Source: Methanomassiliicoccaceae archaeon
GTDB lineage: Archaea; Thermoplasmatota; Thermoplasmata; Methanomassiliicoccales; Methanomethylophilaceae
Direction of reading: 5' to 3'
Length of the DNA: 59,784 bases
Assembly (NCBI GenBank): GCA_034928305.1
Contig: JAYFOZ010000004.1
Coordinates: forward strand, 1 to 59,784
Part shown: positions 11,327 to 18,773 of the stretch, piece by piece
Position numbering within the stretch: the first letter of the stretch is position 1
Layout of the letters: every line of letters starts with the position of its first letter
Notes under the pieces: model-generated
Database searches by the model: none
Seen by the model: the letters and a program-made list of their open reading frames with translations, nothing else
Told to the model about the DNA's origin: nothing
Position numbers and translations under genes: made by a program

Positions 11327-12310
11327 ATGTCTGGGGAGAACGATTATCTAAACCTCGATCATTTAACCCACATGGCTGAAAAATGGGATTGGCATAACGA
11401 TGTTGTGCCCCGCATAGACGGGAAACGCGTTGTGGTGACCGGGGGCGCATCGGGACTGGGCGCATACATCGCCGAAGCTCTCTGCGCCAAAGGGGCATCT
11501 GTCGTATTGGCCGACAGGGATGTAAAAGGCGCGGAAACTGTTGCCGGGAAGATCGCCTCCTCTGTGCCCCGAGCCGATGTTTCCGTCCGTTTTCTTGACT
11601 TGGCAGACCCTGTTACGATAGAGGATTTCGCAACCTGGTACATGTCCGAATACAGCACTTTGGACATACTCGTGAACAACGCCGGGATCATGACGCCGCC
11701 CTACGGCAAGACCGTCAAAGGATTCGAATCCCAGTTGGGAGTCAACCATCTGGGACATTTCACTCTCGCATACCACCTTCTGCCTGTCCTGGCCTCGACT
11801 CCCGGGTCCCGCCTCGTCACCCAGACCTCCATCGTGCACCGCGGAGGAAAAATCAATTTCAAAGATATCAATTCCGAGAGATCGTACAGTCCCTGGAAGG
11901 CGTACAAGCAGAGCAAGCTGGCCACGCTGCTCTTCTCCCGGGAGCTTGACAGACGCCTAAGGTCTCTGGGAATGGAGGCTCCGGTCAGCGTAGCCAGCCA
12001 CCCCGGCCTGGTCGACACCCAGTTGTACCGGAACAGAGAGAGGATGAGAAGATGGCTCAAACCGTTCATGCACGAACTGGAGGCCGGCGCAATGCCGGCC
12101 CTCCGCGCGGCCCTGGACCCGGAGGCCCGGGGAGGCCAGCTCTACGGCACCGACGGTTGGATGGAGTTCAAGGGCCGGGCCATTCTGGTACGGCCTCACG
12201 GAAAGGGGAAAAACACGGACCTGGCCTCCAAGGTGTGGGAGCTTTCCGAAAATATGACCGGACTGGACTTCTCGGCCCGTCTGCGTGAGTGCGCGTCGGG
12301 CGATCGGTGA
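11327..12310 (+). CDS. Short-chain dehydrogenase/reductase, retinol-dehydrogenase-like subgroup
   Basis: About 327 residues from the ATG at 11327 (a TTG at 11318 would add three). It has the SDR cofactor motif TGGASGLG, NNAGIM, the catalytic Ser/Tyr/Lys region with YKQSKLA, and SVASHPGLVDT. The middle segment FESQLGVNHLGHF and the position of YxxSKLA followed by LFSRELDRRL resemble the RDH11-14-like branch more than ordinary fatty-acid or sugar SDRs. It probably reduces or oxidises a hydrophobic carbonyl/alcohol with NAD(P)H. It lies 1.3 kb before a heliorhodopsin gene, which raises the possibility of a retinoid substrate. That link is speculation. Confidence 0.82.
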   Translation: MSGENDYLNLDHLTHMAEKWDWHNDVVPRIDGKRVVVTGGASGLGAYIAEALCAKGASVVLADRDVKGAETVAGKIASSVPRADVSVRFLDLADPVTIEDFATWYMSEYSTLDILVNNAGIMTPPYGKTVKGFESQLGVNHLGHFTLAYHLLPVLASTPGSRLVTQTSIVHRGGKINFKDINSERSYSPWKAYKQSKLATLLFSRELDRRLRSLGMEAPVSVASHPGLVDTQLYRNRERMRRWLKPFMHELEAGAMPALRAALDPEARGGQLYGTDGWMEFKGRAILVRPHGKGKNTDLASKVWELSENMTGLDFSARLRECASGDR

Positions 12311-12347: not shown

Positions 12348-12635
12348 ATGGACCAGATAACCATCATAGGGCTGGCGGCAGGCCTGATCACCACAATGGG
12401 ATACGTACCTCAGGTGATCAAGGGATACCGCAGCGGGCGCATGGAGGACGTCTCTCTTTTCATGCCCGCGTTCCTCATGGTGGGCATGGGCCTCTGGCTC
12501 ATCTACGGCATCTTTCTCGGGGACCTTCCGATAATGCTCTGGAACGCCGTATCCGTGGCCCTCAACGCGGCGATGATAATAATGAAGGTCCGTTACGGCA
12601 AGAAAAGAAAAAATAAGGCGGAAGTCACTCGCTGA
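12348..12635 (+). CDS. SemiSWEET/PQ-loop family membrane protein
   Basis: A 95-residue protein with three hydrophobic segments and the PQ-loop signature in the first (MGYVPQVIKGY), as in SemiSWEET sugar carriers, which work as dimers. A basic C-terminal tail (RYGKKRKNKAE) would lie in the cytoplasm by the positive-inside rule. It starts 37 bases after the SDR gene on the same strand, so it may be cotranscribed. Its end overlaps the convergent QueG-like gene by 11 bases. The transported substrate cannot be told from sequence. Confidence 0.8.
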   Translation: MDQITIIGLAAGLITTMGYVPQVIKGYRSGRMEDVSLFMPAFLMVGMGLWLIYGIFLGDLPIMLWNAVSVALNAAMIIMKVRYGKKRKNKAEVTR

Positions 12636-13359
12636 GCCGAGAGAACGGGCAGACCGAGATACACCTTCCGCAGGCCCTCTCGGGCTTGCTGCCGTCGCCG
12701 ATCAGCTTTGCCTCGAACACTCCGCACTTCTTCCAATCTATGACCGCGTCCCGGCTCTCGGGGTGGTGGCCGAACTCGGTTTCTTTCAGAACCTTCATCG
12801 CGCACCGGTCGATGCATTCGGTGCATTCTCCGCATTTGCTGTCGACGAGCTTCGCCTTCCGTGTGACCGGCATGTCCGTGAGCACCGCGCCCATACGCTG
12901 TCTGGGCCCGTACTCGTCTGTGATGAACAGCCCGTTCTTGCCTATCCAGCCCATTCCGGACCTGGCCGCGATTGCCTTTTGTGATATAGGTCCGAGGAGA
13001 TTCTCCATGTCGATCCTCTGAGAGGGGTCGATGAACCTGGCCTTGTAGCCCTCGGCCGCCAGTATCTGCACTATCTTCTCTCCCGCCTCCTTGAGCTTCT
13101 TGTTGCACATCTTGTAGGCCGATCGTATCTCCTCGCTCGGTTTCTCCAAAGATGCCCGGGCCGCTTCCTTGGGTATCTCCACGGCGAATGTCACCGCATA
13201 AGGGAACTCGAAGACGGCGGCATCGCCGGCCGGCATGCCCTTGAGATCGGACATATCGGCGAATCCTATCAGGCATGAGCCCGATTCCAGTGCGGCGGCC
13301 TCGATCTTCTGATAAAGCGGTTCCAAAGTACCGGTGTGCGTCATGCGCGGAGGATGCAT
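12625..13359 (-). CDS. QueG-like protein with double [4Fe-4S] cluster domain
   Basis: 244 residues, much shorter than true epoxyqueuosine reductase (about 350-380). It keeps the segment RSGMGWIGKNGLF and the ferredoxin-like C terminus: CGECTECIDRC, then a lone Cys, then CGRCISVCPF, eight cysteines for two [4Fe-4S] clusters. The C-terminal HEAT-like part of QueG is missing. Family members are often labelled epoxyqueuosine reductase, but archaea make archaeosine rather than queuosine, so another corrinoid- or electron-transfer role is more likely. Known members use a cobalamin bound by the N-terminal domain; whether that is kept here I cannot tell. Confidence 0.78.
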   Translation of the reverse strand: MHPPRMTHTGTLEPLYQKIEAAALESGSCLIGFADMSDLKGMPAGDAAVFEFPYAVTFAVEIPKEAARASLEKPSEEIRSAYKMCNKKLKEAGEKIVQILAAEGYKARFIDPSQRIDMENLLGPISQKAIAARSGMGWIGKNGLFITDEYGPRQRMGAVLTDMPVTRKAKLVDSKCGECTECIDRCAMKVLKETEFGHHPESRDAVIDWKKCGVFEAKLIGDGSKPERACGRCISVCPFSRLSE

Positions 13360-13524: not shown

Positions 13525-13565
13525 GGATGTTCCGCCCTACATAGAGGACATGGAACCCGGATAAG

Positions 13566-13576
13566 GATATATACGT
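13566..13576 (+). promoter_or_regulatory. TATA box of the heliorhodopsin gene
   Basis: GATATATACG lies about 28-37 bases before the ATG at 13603, the spacing expected for a leaderless archaeal transcript starting at or next to the start codon. This supports the ATG at 13603 (or the GTG at 13594) as the true start. Confidence 0.5.
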
Positions 13577-13602
13577 ATTAACGCCGTGCAACAGTGATCC
13601 AC

Positions 13603-14379
13603 ATGAACGACGCTGTATCAGACGATATAAAGTTCCAGAAGCTTAGACGGTTCAACCTGATAATGGGATTCTTCCATTTCATCCAGGCCGCCATAATGCT
13701 CGCGATAGCGAACTACGACGTGCAGATGAGTTTCACCACTTCGTACATCGACGCCACCGCCGGATTCCCTCCCGTCGGGCCCGGAGCCGCTCAAGTTTTA
13801 TTCAGCGTGCCCTTGGGACCGATGGTGGCCGTATTCCTGCTGATGTCGGCTATAGCCCATCTCTCGATCGCCACGTTCGGGTTCGACTGGTACGTTAAGA
13901 ACCTCAAGATGAACATGAACAAGGCCCGCTGGTTCGAGTACGCGTTGTCCTCTTCATTCATGTTGGTGGTGATAGCCTGGCTTTGCGGCATGTTCGACTT
14001 CGTATCCATCATAATGCTGTTCTCCCTGAACGCATGCATGAACCTGTTCGGCTACATGATGGAGGCGCACAACCAGAACACCAAGAAGACGGATTGGACC
14101 TCGTTCATATTCGGATGCTTCGCCGGGCTCGTCCCCTGGGTCGCGCTGATCATGTACTTCACCGGCGTCACCGGAGGCTCCCCTCCTGCGTTCGTCTACG
14201 GTATCATGGTCTCGATCGCTTTCTTCTTCAACATATTCGCGGTCAACATGATCCTGCAGTACAAGAAGGTCGGAAAGTGGAAGGACTACCTCTACGGCGA
14301 GAGGGTGTATATCATACTGAGCCTGGTGGCCAAGACCGCCCTGGCCTGGCAGGTGTTCGCCGGGACCATGGTCGGCTGA
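13603..14379 (+). CDS. Heliorhodopsin
   Basis: 258 residues (261 if the GTG at 13594 is used) with seven hydrophobic segments. It matches heliorhodopsin throughout: FNLIMGFFHFIQ in helix 1 with the conserved His, AIAHLS with the second conserved His, RWFEYALSSS in helix 3 where Glu is the Schiff-base counterion, the PW(V)ALIMY helix, LQYKKVGKW, and GERVYIILSLVAKTALAWQ in helix 7, where the Lys (codon 14332-14334) binds retinal. These are the residues that separate heliorhodopsins from type 1 rhodopsins. Members lie inverted in the membrane, do not pump ions, and are thought to signal or regulate a partner protein. A leaderless promoter precedes it and a hairpin follows. No carotenoid or retinal synthesis gene is in the window. 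Confidence 0.95.
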   Translation: MNDAVSDDIKFQKLRRFNLIMGFFHFIQAAIMLAIANYDVQMSFTTSYIDATAGFPPVGPGAAQVLFSVPLGPMVAVFLLMSAIAHLSIATFGFDWYVKNLKMNMNKARWFEYALSSSFMLVVIAWLCGMFDFVSIIMLFSLNACMNLFGYMMEAHNQNTKKTDWTSFIFGCFAGLVPWVALIMYFTGVTGGSPPAFVYGIMVSIAFFFNIFAVNMILQYKKVGKWKDYLYGERVYIILSLVAKTALAWQVFAGTMVG

Positions 14380-14578: not shown

Positions 14579-15406
14579 TCATTGAGATGGGCGCCATATC
14601 AGAAGTCCCAGGCGGTTCATCTGCTCGGTACGGACCACGCCTTCCTCCGCATGCGAACCGACCACGTCTTCGATCGCCTTTGAAATCTCGCGTTCGTCCC
14701 TGTAGAGAAGGAATTTCCGCTTGTAGAATTCTGCGAGCCTGCCGGGTTCGCTCTCGCTGCAAGTCTCGATCTCAAATTTTTTTAAGATGGGTTCCCTGCC
14801 TATGGATTTCAGAAAACGTAAAGGAAAACCCGTGTCGTAACCCTCATAGGTGTATTCCCTGCCGAGCTCTCTCCAGATCTCGAAATAAATCGAATCCCTG
14901 TCTTTGGACATCGAAGAAATGTATATGCATGTATCGCTTGAGCACATCTCCATTTTAAGGATCGAGACAGAAGAATTTACCGGAGGGCAGAGCGAGGAGA
15001 AGGCAATGTCGTACTTCCTTTTCGGAACGTAAACATCCCAGTCCGCGCATTCGGTGCGGATGTTGGTTATCCCTTCGGTCCCGCATATGCCGTCGAGACG
15101 CTCCAGCATGCGTGCGGACTTGTCGATCGCAAGTATGCCTTTCACCGACGGCGATAACCTTAGGGAATACGTCCCGGGTCCGCATCCGATGTCCAGCAGG
15201 TCTTTGTTCCTGCTCACGTATCCTTCTGAGACGAGGAATTCCGTTATCATGTCGTGGATCTCCGAAAGCGTCCCGTCCCCGTACGTCTCGGCGGAATCAT
15301 CCCATATTTTATCGATGTCTTTCTCGGAAAGCCCCTCGGCGAAGAAGGGATGTCTGCACCTGGCATGTTCCCACTCTCTTATCACCGGAATAGGATCAGA
15401 CCGCAT
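14579..15406 (-). CDS. Class I SAM-dependent methyltransferase
   Basis: 275 residues with a clear Rossmann SAM site, LLDIGCGPGTYSLRL, followed by ILAIDKSARML as the acidic-loop strand and a DIAFSSLCP motif IV-like segment. The C-terminal part is variable and gives no substrate clue. Its start overlaps the end of the FecCD permease gene by 11 bases, so it is translationally coupled to the importer. A methyltransferase inside a chelate-import operon suggests modification of the imported cofactor or of a chelator; that is inference. Confidence 0.82.
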   Translation of the reverse strand: MRSDPIPVIREWEHARCRHPFFAEGLSEKDIDKIWDDSAETYGDGTLSEIHDMITEFLVSEGYVSRNKDLLDIGCGPGTYSLRLSPSVKGILAIDKSARMLERLDGICGTEGITNIRTECADWDVYVPKRKYDIAFSSLCPPVNSSVSILKMEMCSSDTCIYISSMSKDRDSIYFEIWRELGREYTYEGYDTGFPLRFLKSIGREPILKKFEIETCSESEPGRLAEFYKRKFLLYRDEREISKAIEDVVGSHAEEGVVRTEQMNRLGLLIWRPSQ

Positions 15407-16463
15407 TGTCGCTCTTCCTCCTAAGTAGCAGAAATAAAAGCAGCGGGCCGCCGACCATGGCGGTAATGGCGCCTACCGGGAGCATTATCGGTTCTGCCAA
15501 GACCTTTGCGCCCAGGTCTGCCAGGAGCAGGATCGCGGAACCGCACAGCGCGGATGCGGGTATAAGGTATCTCATGTCTCCGCCTACGAAGATCCGCGAG
15601 ATATGCGGCGCCAGCAGACATATGAAGCCTATGGAGCCTGTAAAGCATACCACCATCGCGGTGGAAAGACATGCGACGAGCAGAGTGACCGTTCTGACGG
15701 CCTCGGTGTTGACGCCCAGGCTTCGTGCGGTATCGTCGCCGAGCCTCATCGCGTTGATGTTCTTCGACAGGTAGGCCGAGGCGGCCAGGCACATCATCAG
15801 GGTTACAAGGACGAACGGGATGTGCCAGATGAAGATATTGTTGAGATCTCCCACCATCCAGAACACTACCGCCTTCACGGCGTTCGGTTCCCCGAAAAAC
15901 TGCAGGAGCGTGTTGGCCGCGCTGAATATGTATGAGATGGCGACACCGCAGAGTACCATGGTGGCCGGCGCCAGGTTTCTCATCCGTCCCGCCGTAAGGA
16001 TGATCGCTATCGGTATGAGTGCGAAGAAGAAGGAGTTCGCTATCACGCCTGCTATGTTCGAGGCCAGGGACATGCCCGTCAGTATCGCTATCGCCGCCCC
16101 GAAGCCCGCGCCCGACGACACGCCCAATGTATAGGGTGTCGCCAAAGGGTTCCTCAGTATGGACTGTGTGAGACATCCTCCTATTGCCAGGACCGCCCCG
16201 CCGATCAGGGCCATAAGTATCCGGGGGAGCCTGATGTCGATGATGATCATCCTCATCCTGTCGCTGATGTCGAAGGTTCCCGGCAGCAGGAAGTTTACAA
16301 GGGTCTTGTAGACGTCCGATACAGATATCTCAGCTGTGCCGACGGTGACCGAGTAGCAAAAGATGGAGATTACGGCGATGAGCAGGAATGATATGAACAG
16401 CAGCCTTTTCACAATAATAGTTCTGATCTTCTCTTCTTCGCAGCTGTTTTCATCGATATTCAA
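15396..16463 (-). CDS. FecCD/BtuC-family ABC importer permease
   Basis: 355 residues with roughly ten hydrophobic segments. It carries the family landmarks IRLPRILMALIGGAVLAIGG, QSILRNPLATPYTLGVSSGAGFG near the middle and CLLAPHISRIFVGGDMRYLIP near the C terminus. It is the membrane channel for iron-siderophore, cobalamin or similar metal-chelate import. It lies between its binding protein (upstream, same strand) and a coupled methyltransferase. The matching ATPase is divergent at 18012. An N-terminal hydrophilic extension of about 15 residues (MNIDENSCEEEK) precedes the first helix. Confidence 0.92.
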   Translation of the reverse strand: MNIDENSCEEEKIRTIIVKRLLFISFLLIAVISIFCYSVTVGTAEISVSDVYKTLVNFLLPGTFDISDRMRMIIIDIRLPRILMALIGGAVLAIGGCLTQSILRNPLATPYTLGVSSGAGFGAAIAILTGMSLASNIAGVIANSFFFALIPIAIILTAGRMRNLAPATMVLCGVAISYIFSAANTLLQFFGEPNAVKAVVFWMVGDLNNIFIWHIPFVLVTLMMCLAASAYLSKNINAMRLGDDTARSLGVNTEAVRTVTLLVACLSTAMVVCFTGSIGFICLLAPHISRIFVGGDMRYLIPASALCGSAILLLADLGAKVLAEPIMLPVGAITAMVGGPLLLFLLLRRKSDNAV

Positions 16464-16526: not shown

Positions 16527-17921
16527 TCACACCGCAGGGCTGATGAACACGCCGTCCGTGCTGACGTCGTAATCGATGACCCCCAGCCACTCCGACACAT
16601 ACTCGTTGTGTATCGCCACGGCGTCAAAATCTGCAAACTCGTCCGGATAGATCGCCTTTGCGATATACGCCGCATGGAGTATCCCGCCGGTGGCCCCGTT
16701 CCTGAAGTCTCCGGCCATGATGTAGATGTTGCCGTCTTCCACGAAGTCCGTCAAGGGCCTTCCTGCCGCCAAGGCATGTGCGGCGTCCATCCCCGTGCCG
16801 TCGCCCGTGCCGTAACCGTGGTCGGGCGTGGACGTTACCACTGTGCCGCCGTACGTGTATTTCACGCAATGGCAGAATATGAAATCGATATCGGCGGTCA
16901 CTATAGGCTCGGAGCCTACCTTTGTACCGTAAAGCGTCCTGTCGGGCCCCCCGTTGTACTGTTCCTCGGTCAGTATGTCCTTTGCAACCGGATAACCGCC
17001 CGCAAGAAGAAGGGCCTGTACCTGGGGGTCGATCTTGGTATAGATGCTCCAATCGGTTATGCTATCGTCGGAGAAGTAGGAATTGGAATAGTTGGTCATG
17101 AGCACTTTGACCTTGTCCTCCTCCTCGATACCGCCGGATATCGATGCGATCTCATCTCTGATGTCGAGAAGCCGTTCCACGTAGGCTTCTGCCCTTTCTA
17201 CCCTGTCGAATATGTATCCGGCCTTCAGTATGCCCTGGATATACTCCGACTTTTCGGGCTCGAGGACGTCGGGCCTGTACATCCCGAGGTAGATGACGTC
17301 CACATCCTGGAGCATCTCCTGTTTGGCCTCCGTGCCGGCATATGAGAACGTGAGCAGTATGTCCAGGTCCAGCCCGGCCACGAACTCGTAGTTGGGGGCG
17401 TTCATGTTGACAAGATTGGTGATGCTGTCCCCCCTCTCCTCCCCGAAATAGAAGTCCCTCGTCTGATACGGCGCATTGTCCACGGCCACGACCTTGTCCT
17501 GAAGCCGGAGTATGCACATCAGCTCCGTGTTGCTGTAATATTCGGCACCTATCCTGCTTATGTCGAGACCTATTTTTTTGACATTGCCGTCCCCGTCGAC
17601 CAACCAAAGATATTCGGCGGTCCTGTCGATGACCGCTTGGACCTGCTCTACGTCGCTTGCATCGACGACGCCGTCCTGATTCGCGTCGGCATATGTTGTC
17701 CTGTCGCTGCTTCCGGAGATTATGCTGTTGAGGAAGTCGACGTCATCGCCGTCGAGCTTCCAATCTCCATTCGCGTTGCCGAAGATCTGAAGTTCGGTGT
17801 CTACCGAATATCCCTCTGGGGCGCTTTTCGTCAGCAGGAATATACCGGCTCCCGCGCCGGCCATCGCCAGTGTGGCAACCAACACTACGGCCGCGGTTTT
17901 AGTGTTCATTGCGGCAGGCAT
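16527..17921 (-). CDS. Membrane-anchored ABC substrate-binding protein with dockerin-like Ca-binding repeats
   Basis: 464 residues. Residues 8-30 are a hydrophobic signal/anchor. Two dockerin/EF-hand-like repeats follow: GNANGDWKLDGDDV (48-61) and DANQDGVVDASDV (79-91). The rest is a FecB/BtuF-type helical-backbone binding domain, with YEFVAGLDLDILLTFSY, LMTNYSNSYF and a C-terminal IAKAIYPDEF helix. It captures a metal chelate outside the cell and passes it to the FecCD permease. Dockerin repeats are unusual on an importer binding protein and may give calcium-dependent folding or docking to a surface partner. The first codon could also be the ATG at 17909. The AT-rich divergent promoter region lies at 17922-18011. 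Confidence 0.9.
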   Translation of the reverse strand: MPAAMNTKTAAVVLVATLAMAGAGAGIFLLTKSAPEGYSVDTELQIFGNANGDWKLDGDDVDFLNSIISGSSDRTTYADANQDGVVDASDVEQVQAVIDRTAEYLWLVDGDGNVKKIGLDISRIGAEYYSNTELMCILRLQDKVVAVDNAPYQTRDFYFGEERGDSITNLVNMNAPNYEFVAGLDLDILLTFSYAGTEAKQEMLQDVDVIYLGMYRPDVLEPEKSEYIQGILKAGYIFDRVERAEAYVERLLDIRDEIASISGGIEEEDKVKVLMTNYSNSYFSDDSITDWSIYTKIDPQVQALLLAGGYPVAKDILTEEQYNGGPDRTLYGTKVGSEPIVTADIDFIFCHCVKYTYGGTVVTSTPDHGYGTGDGTGMDAAHALAAGRPLTDFVEDGNIYIMAGDFRNGATGGILHAAYIAKAIYPDEFADFDAVAIHNEYVSEWLGVIDYDVSTDGVFISPAV

Positions 17922-18011: not shown

Positions 18012-18773
18012 GTGAACTTACAGGCAGAGGATATCGAATTTTCATACGGGAGGTCCCAAATTCTTAAGGGCATCGGATTCGAGCTCAGACCGGGCGAGGT
18101 GCTCGGGATAATCGGGCCGAACGGTTCGGGGAAGACCACGCTGATAAAATGCATCAACAGGATACTGGAACCTTCCCAGGGCAAGGTCACCATAGATTCC
18201 CGGGATGTCCTTTCGATGAAGGTGCGCGACGTCGCACGCATCATGGGCTACGTGCCGCAGGCATCTCTTGACGACCTTGCATCGCCGACGGTGTTCGAGG
18301 TCGTCATGATGGGCAGGATGCCTTATTCTTCATGGCAGTCCAATAAGAACGACCAGGAATTGACGTGGAAGGCCCTTGAGGACGTGGATATGAAAAGATT
18401 CGCCTCTGTCCCGTTCCGCCAGCTCAGCAGCGGCCAGATGCAGAGGGTGCTCATCGCAAGGGCCCTGGCCCAGGAGGCGAGGATCCTGCTGCTGGACGAG
18501 CCCACCAGCAACCTGGACATCAAATTCCAGAGAGAGATCATGGATGTCATCATCGGGCTGGTGAGGACCAAGAACGTCAGCGCATGCATGATACTCCATG
18601 ATATGGACGCCGCCATGAAATATTGCGACAAAGCGGTCATAGTGGACGGGGGGGCCGTTACGGCCGCGGGCGATACCGAAGAAGTGCTGACCGCCGAAAA
18701 TATCATGAGGACGTTCGGGGTAAAAGTCGCCATCGACCGCAACTACGGGCGCCCCCACATAATCGTCCTGTAA
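18012..18773 (+). CDS. FecE/BtuD-family ABC importer ATPase
   Basis: 253 residues with Walker A GPNGSGKTT, the Q-loop GYVPQAS, the signature LSSGQMQRV, Walker B ILLLDEPTSNLD and the H-loop LHDMD. It is the motor for the importer encoded divergently to the left. The GTG start at 18012 places MNLQAEDIEFSYG as a normal N terminus. It converges with the FmdE-like gene, three bases apart. Confidence 0.93.
   Translation: MNLQAEDIEFSYGRSQILKGIGFELRPGEVLGIIGPNGSGKTTLIKCINRILEPSQGKVTIDSRDVLSMKVRDVARIMGYVPQASLDDLASPTVFEVVMMGRMPYSSWQSNKNDQELTWKALEDVDMKRFASVPFRQLSSGQMQRVLIARALAQEARILLLDEPTSNLDIKFQREIMDVIIGLVRTKNVSACMILHDMDAAMKYCDKAVIVDGGAVTAAGDTEEVLTAENIMRTFGVKVAIDRNYGRPHIIVL

Follow-up and report, generated by a model that had tools for sequence, protein, structure and literature searches.

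A methanogen of the order Methanomassiliicoccales encodes a genuine, full-length heliorhodopsin (HeR) with its hallmarks intact. The gene lies in a window of 59,784 nucleotides, the whole stretch of DNA that was analyzed (contig JAYFOZ010000004.1 of assembly GCA_034928305.1). Because the protein family has already been described, the novelty lies in the host and not in the type of protein. We favor, with moderate confidence, the view that this HeR functions as a slow light sensor in a strictly anaerobic methanogen, where it would be loaded with scavenged retinal and would signal to a partner. Retinal binding, scavenging, and a sensory role are what we infer for the window HeR, as is the role considered below for a neighboring short-chain dehydrogenase (SDR).

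The HeR open reading frame runs from an ATG start to a TGA stop at 14377–14379, and an alternative in-frame GTG at 13594, upstream of the ATG, would yield a protein of 261 residues. Its product matches PF18761 across the entire profile (positions 1–242 of 242; 334 bits, E 5e-100) and the NCBIfam equivalog NF038020 with 328 bits (cut-off, 100), and both matches are far above chance. Alignments to solved structures gave E values of 2e-78 for TaHeR (6IS6) and 2e-60 for 48C12 (6SU3). An AlphaFold2 model (pLDDT 86) has a TM score of 0.90 to TaHeR 6IS6, and the ten best PDB matches of this model are all heliorhodopsins (TM 0.85–0.90). In a tree of 70 HeRs, which includes TaHeR and carries no type-1 rhodopsin outgroup, the window protein joins the other HeRs of Methanomassiliicoccales. 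Homology to TaHeR and 48C12 further predicts an inverted topology, wherein the N terminus is cytoplasmic.

Table 1. Features at and upstream of the heliorhodopsin locus (window coordinates)
Feature	Coordinates	Strand	Basis
RDH-like short-chain dehydrogenase (SDR, PRK06197 subfamily)	11369..12310	+	PF00106 and NF004846 above cut-off; TGGASGLG, YKQSK
Small SemiSWEET transporter (PQ-loop), located between SDR and HeR	12348..12635	+	NF037968, PF04193; synteny
QueG-like protein (double 4Fe-4S), oriented divergently from HeR	12628..13359	-	partial TIGR00276 match below cut-off; Fer4 matches
TATA-type archaeal promoter	13560..13580	+	TATATA at 13568-13573; box at kept distance from ATG in five species
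Heliorhodopsin (HeR) gene	13603..14379	+	encodes a seven-helix retinal protein of 258 residues (retinal lysine K244; counterion E112; H25 and H86)

The residues expected to form the retinal pocket and proton network were assessed by aligning the window HeR to 48C12 and TaHeR, using the residue roles given for 48C12 in PMC9726877. None of the 15 checked residues is altered (N18, H25, Q28, S82, H86, Y97, R109, E112, Y113, S116, E154, E233, S240, K244, and W249). The SxxxK motif of TM7 is represented by S240-L-V-A-K244, the counterpart of S237/K241 in 48C12, the TM3 counterion E112 aligns with E107, and H25 and H86 align with H23 and H80. Across a 33-sequence alignment, K244, E112, S240, R109, E154, and W249 are invariant. 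The first-pass annotation had placed the retinal lysine within SLVAKTALAWQ and had named a counterion glutamate and two conserved histidines as marks of an intact heliorhodopsin, and the profile matches and residue alignment bear out each of these assignments. It had also credited the gene with its own leaderless promoter. The TATATA sequence lies about 30 bases 5′ of the HeR ATG, and a AAGGATATATACG-type box with the same spacing to the ATG is present in five species of two genera (the window, UBA421, UBA370, UBA381, and RumEn M2), while the sequence flanking this box has diverged between the two genera. The promoter itself is thus upheld by a conserved box, whereas a leaderless or near-leaderless transcript is plausible, given that box and spacing persist in diverged surroundings in a manner suggestive of a 5′ leader that is very short or missing.

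Conservation of the retinal site bears on the alternative that fares best against the favored reading, in which the protein would be an apo-opsin, or would hold another ligand such as a non-retinal aldehyde or a lipid, and would not sense light. A chromophore source was not found in the genome, and habitats may be dark, that of the window genome included; the RumEn M2 HeR is 84% identical to that of the window, and PMC7824343 lists this strain among enrichment-grown ones whose sources were kitchen waste or the guts of animals or humans. However, if the use of retinal had been lost, the sites that serve it would be expected to relax, and no change is seen in K244, E112, S240, or any part of the proton network. 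Moreover, pairwise dN/dS values (NG86) among HeRs of the clade that holds the window protein (clade A) are 0.04–0.17, indicating that the gene is under strong purifying selection. We therefore regard an apo-opsin as unlikely.

The host is a methanogen of the order Methanomassiliicoccales, as the first-pass annotation had supposed to be probable. Its genome (1.34 Mb, 98.9% complete) encodes McrA (PF02249, E 3e-60), and a McrA tree of the window genome and 106 others places it with a support of 99 in a monophyletic family, here called f1. The closest HeR loci are those of Methanomassiliicoccaceae UBA421 and UBA370. The same annotation was right that HeRs are known in Thermoplasmatota, but it overstated the case in calling one unexpected in an anaerobe, since Firmicutes that are strict anaerobes and Thermoplasmatales archaea were already known to carry HeRs (PMC8612252), as were sediment Bathyarchaeota (PMC7110647). 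The question that it raised about the origin of retinal is nonetheless a real one, because the genome search that it called for, carried out for crtB and Brp/Blh and extended here to RPE65, recovered homologs of none of the three from the window genome.

Specifically, phytoene synthase (PSY, crtB) was not found in the window genome by a search whose control was positive in seven well-known genomes. BCD (Brp/Blh) was likewise not found there and exceeded the cut-off in none of the 147 genomes of Methanomassiliicoccales, while of 390 genomes searched across the phylum, 14 exceeded it with the same model, all from another family, which serves as the positive control. RPE65-type dioxygenases were not found in the 147 genomes of the order, that of the window included, with two positives in the control search. 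Ten genomes of the order gave BCD matches below the cut-off. The two that were inspected (L116 and L117) overlap FlaJ/TadC-like membrane proteins or their antisense strand, and these below-cut-off matches were therefore set aside. PSY is present in 11 genomes of the order, 10 of which also carry HeR, although the association was not significant after phylogenetic correction, with few independent events. In nine of these 11 genomes PSY sits in a crtI-crtB-UbiA-type prenyltransferase cluster (L157-L165). Such clusters resemble those for C50 carotenoid synthesis, with a putative lycopene elongase, and are not a known route to retinal. We rejected them as a source of retinal because the gene set suggests C50 carotenoids and not beta-carotene, and because the window genome has no PSY. 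Hence, the PSY, BCD, and RPE65 searches recognized no route to retinal in the order, though 39 of its 147 genomes carry HeR.

A strict anaerobe would not be expected to use oxygen-dependent cleavage, and the retention of HeR in many genomes that have no known pathway could mean that the cell makes retinal by an unrecognized oxygen-independent or non-homologous route. Such a route seems improbable to us. With PSY missing from the window genome, the C40 precursor itself is probably absent, and the gene sets of those relatives that do have PSY resemble C50 carotenoid synthesis.

HeR is distributed patchily in the order. It occurs in 39 genomes (38 over the cut-off; 22 of the 74 high-quality genomes), its distribution shows 18 changes on the McrA tree, and single-gene neighborhoods vary between families. 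These features are what would be expected of a horizontally acquired passenger, or of a binning artefact, that has no function in the methanogen. In contrast, the HeR locus and its gene order are common to the independent assemblies UBA421, UBA370, UBA381, and RumEn M2, which makes misbinning unlikely, and the strong purifying selection and the conserved promoter argue against a functionless gene. We accordingly give this explanation little weight.

Horizontal acquisition as such is well supported. The HeR tree resolves several lineages in the order, and clade A comprises sequences from two genera of f1 and several genera of a second family, f6. Clade-A HeRs of f1 and f6 are 62–86% identical, mostly 77–86% (the window HeR reaches 86% with those of f6), while the McrA proteins are 70–75% identical. 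The f1 clade-A sequences are nested within those of f6, and vertical descent is disfavored, since a tree that unites the f6 clade-A HeRs yields an AU p of 0.04. From this nesting and test, together with the monophyly of f1 on the McrA tree, we infer that clade-A HeR has moved between families; the donor of the f1 gene was probably a relative of f6. The two f1 genera may have acquired the gene once or twice, the relevant support being 44/10. Two f6 genomes, G137 (L123:7784-9488) and G145 (L228:1993-3781), carry two HeRs of different lineages arranged head to tail, and these are about 85% and 48–50% identical to the window HeR.

The first-pass annotation had missed both this HeR clade, common to families of the order, and a gene that tracks it. 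An RDH-like SDR lies 1.3 kb upstream of the window HeR and has the TGxxxGxG and YxxxK motifs of the SDR fold. Its subfamily is presumably related to animal retinol dehydrogenases. However, PRK06197-type SDRs form a broad family, which counts against assigning the predicted retinoid role to this member, and the nearest solved relative (3RD5) is an entry with a code name and no named function. The SDR and SemiSWEET genes precede HeR on the same strand in each of the five f1 species with a clade-A HeR; in the window, the QueG-like gene intervenes on the opposite strand. Among f6 genomes, homologs of the SDR and the QueG-like protein, each at about 75% identity, are encoded side by side in G139; in G145 both genes lie no more than about 8 kb from the HeRs (QueG-like, 70% identity). 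In the SDR tree the window SDRs group with that of G139 (100/100) and then with that of G145. Because this pattern is like that of the HeR tree, the gene set was probably transferred as one. In RumEn M2, the SDR upstream of HeR (L007:3500-4472) is split over two frames, which may reflect a sequencing error or a broken gene.

When the SDR was counted as present at an identity of at least 49%, it occurred in 10 of 10 HeR-bearing genomes of f1 and in one of the 92 that have no HeR, the exception being G108, which is 68% complete. In genera g11 and g4 the SDR and HeR genes reside on different contigs, and close linkage is thus no explanation for their co-occurrence there; the linked co-occurrence in two f1 genera could be hitch-hiking. 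For the whole order, the SDR was present in 13 of 39 genomes with HeR versus 2 of 108 without it (Fisher 4e-7). Significance was not reached, however, when independent pairs were tested on the McrA tree, with few independent events, and most f6 hosts of HeR have no SDR of the window type. The co-occurrence is best treated as a lead, not proof.

We rejected a fixed operon partner for HeR across the order, because neighbors vary by family. The f6 HeRs have a gene for an ArsA-type ATPase on one side and an ACT/metallo-lactamase gene on the other, adjacency of SDR among 80 HeR loci extended beyond the window's clade as two weak matches only, and no histidine kinase was recognized among annotated HeR neighbors. 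Downstream of the window HeR, a methyltransferase gene (14579-15406, minus strand) shows a weak likeness to CpaM (corrinoid-associated; 34 bits, well below the cut-off). Farther on, a minus-strand gene (16527-17921), next to genes for an iron transporter of the FecCD type (15396-16463) and for an ABC ATPase (18012-18773), encodes a protein with two N-terminal DxNxDGxxD-like repeats that are dockerin-like and with no Pfam match at E 0.001.

On the favored reading, HeR would be a light sensor; it would sit in the cytoplasmic membrane of the strictly anaerobic methanogen and would bind all-trans retinal, or a close analog, taken from the surroundings, since the known retinal-making enzymes are absent from the cell. 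A fenestration in TaHeR has been proposed as the entry for exogenous retinal (PMC9385722), and rhodopsins of Saccharibacteria take up added retinal (PMC9296517). Light would then isomerize the chromophore, the Schiff-base proton would pass to E112 and on to H86/H25, and the resulting change in the shape of HeR might be relayed to a partner protein. Signaling through a partner is proposed by analogy with HeRs that work via partner proteins, namely the HeR-glutamine synthetase and HeR-ABC transporter cases reported in PMC9529153 and PMC11109279. The best local candidate would be the SDR just upstream, which might be regulated by light as the partner of HeR or might load the opsin by converting retinol to retinal and back. 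A more elaborate version, which we consider doubtful, is a mobile two-part system for retinal salvage and sensing, wherein the SDR would turn environmental retinol, or another retinoid, into retinal and so load HeR in cells devoid of carotenoid and retinal synthesis, and the pair would spread between methanogen families. A light-driven ion transporter like viral V2HeR3 is very improbable, for although a viral HeR transports protons (PMC9448325), a survey states that ion pumping had not been demonstrated for HeRs (PMC8612252), and the closest solved structure is that of the archaeal TaHeR and not of the viral type.

The native role and the chromophore source of prokaryotic HeRs are general questions that bear on the window protein, and here many members of an order of strict anaerobes keep HeR under selection without a known retinal-forming enzyme. 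The SDR that tracks the opsin offers a concrete candidate for a partner, and with RumEn M2 listed among enrichment-grown strains, chromophore scavenging and effects of light in methanogens are directly testable. That HeRs occur in anaerobes, and that some of their hosts have no retinal synthesis, is already known. Four points appear new as far as checked: methanogens as hosts, the absence of retinal enzymes throughout the order, inter-family transfer, and the link to the SDR. Titles, abstracts, and passages of the literature yielded no discussion of HeR in methanogens; supplementary tables of surveys may list such genomes.

Several known systems resemble the one described here in part. An SDR gene in the HeR operon is one of ten frequent neighbor groups in PMC11109279, and the window likewise has an SDR neighbor, the two groups being likened by description only; unlike in that group, a separate promoter probably serves the window HeR, and co-occurrence of the SDR with HeR extends to genomes in which the two are unlinked. 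The Bathyarchaeota HeRs, as portrayed in passages of PMC7110647, come from sediment archaea that likewise lack a complete retinal pathway and for which exogenous retinal was proposed, and RDH-type genes occur in seven MAGs of that HeR study. However, these archaea belong to another phylum, and those passages report no test of RDH linkage or co-occurrence such as that performed here. The bacterial 48C12 (6SU3, 6UH3) is more distant at about 44–45% identity, yet it shares the 15 checked network residues. The nearest likeness is to TaHeR from Thermoplasmatales archaeon SG8-52-1 (6IS6, 7U55), which falls in another clade of the HeR tree and whose host is not described as a methanogen in PMC9385722. 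Nevertheless, TaHeR is about 52% identical to the window HeR, has the same retinal lysine, counterion, and histidines, and comes from a host that, like that of the window, is said to be without retinal synthesis (PMC9385722).
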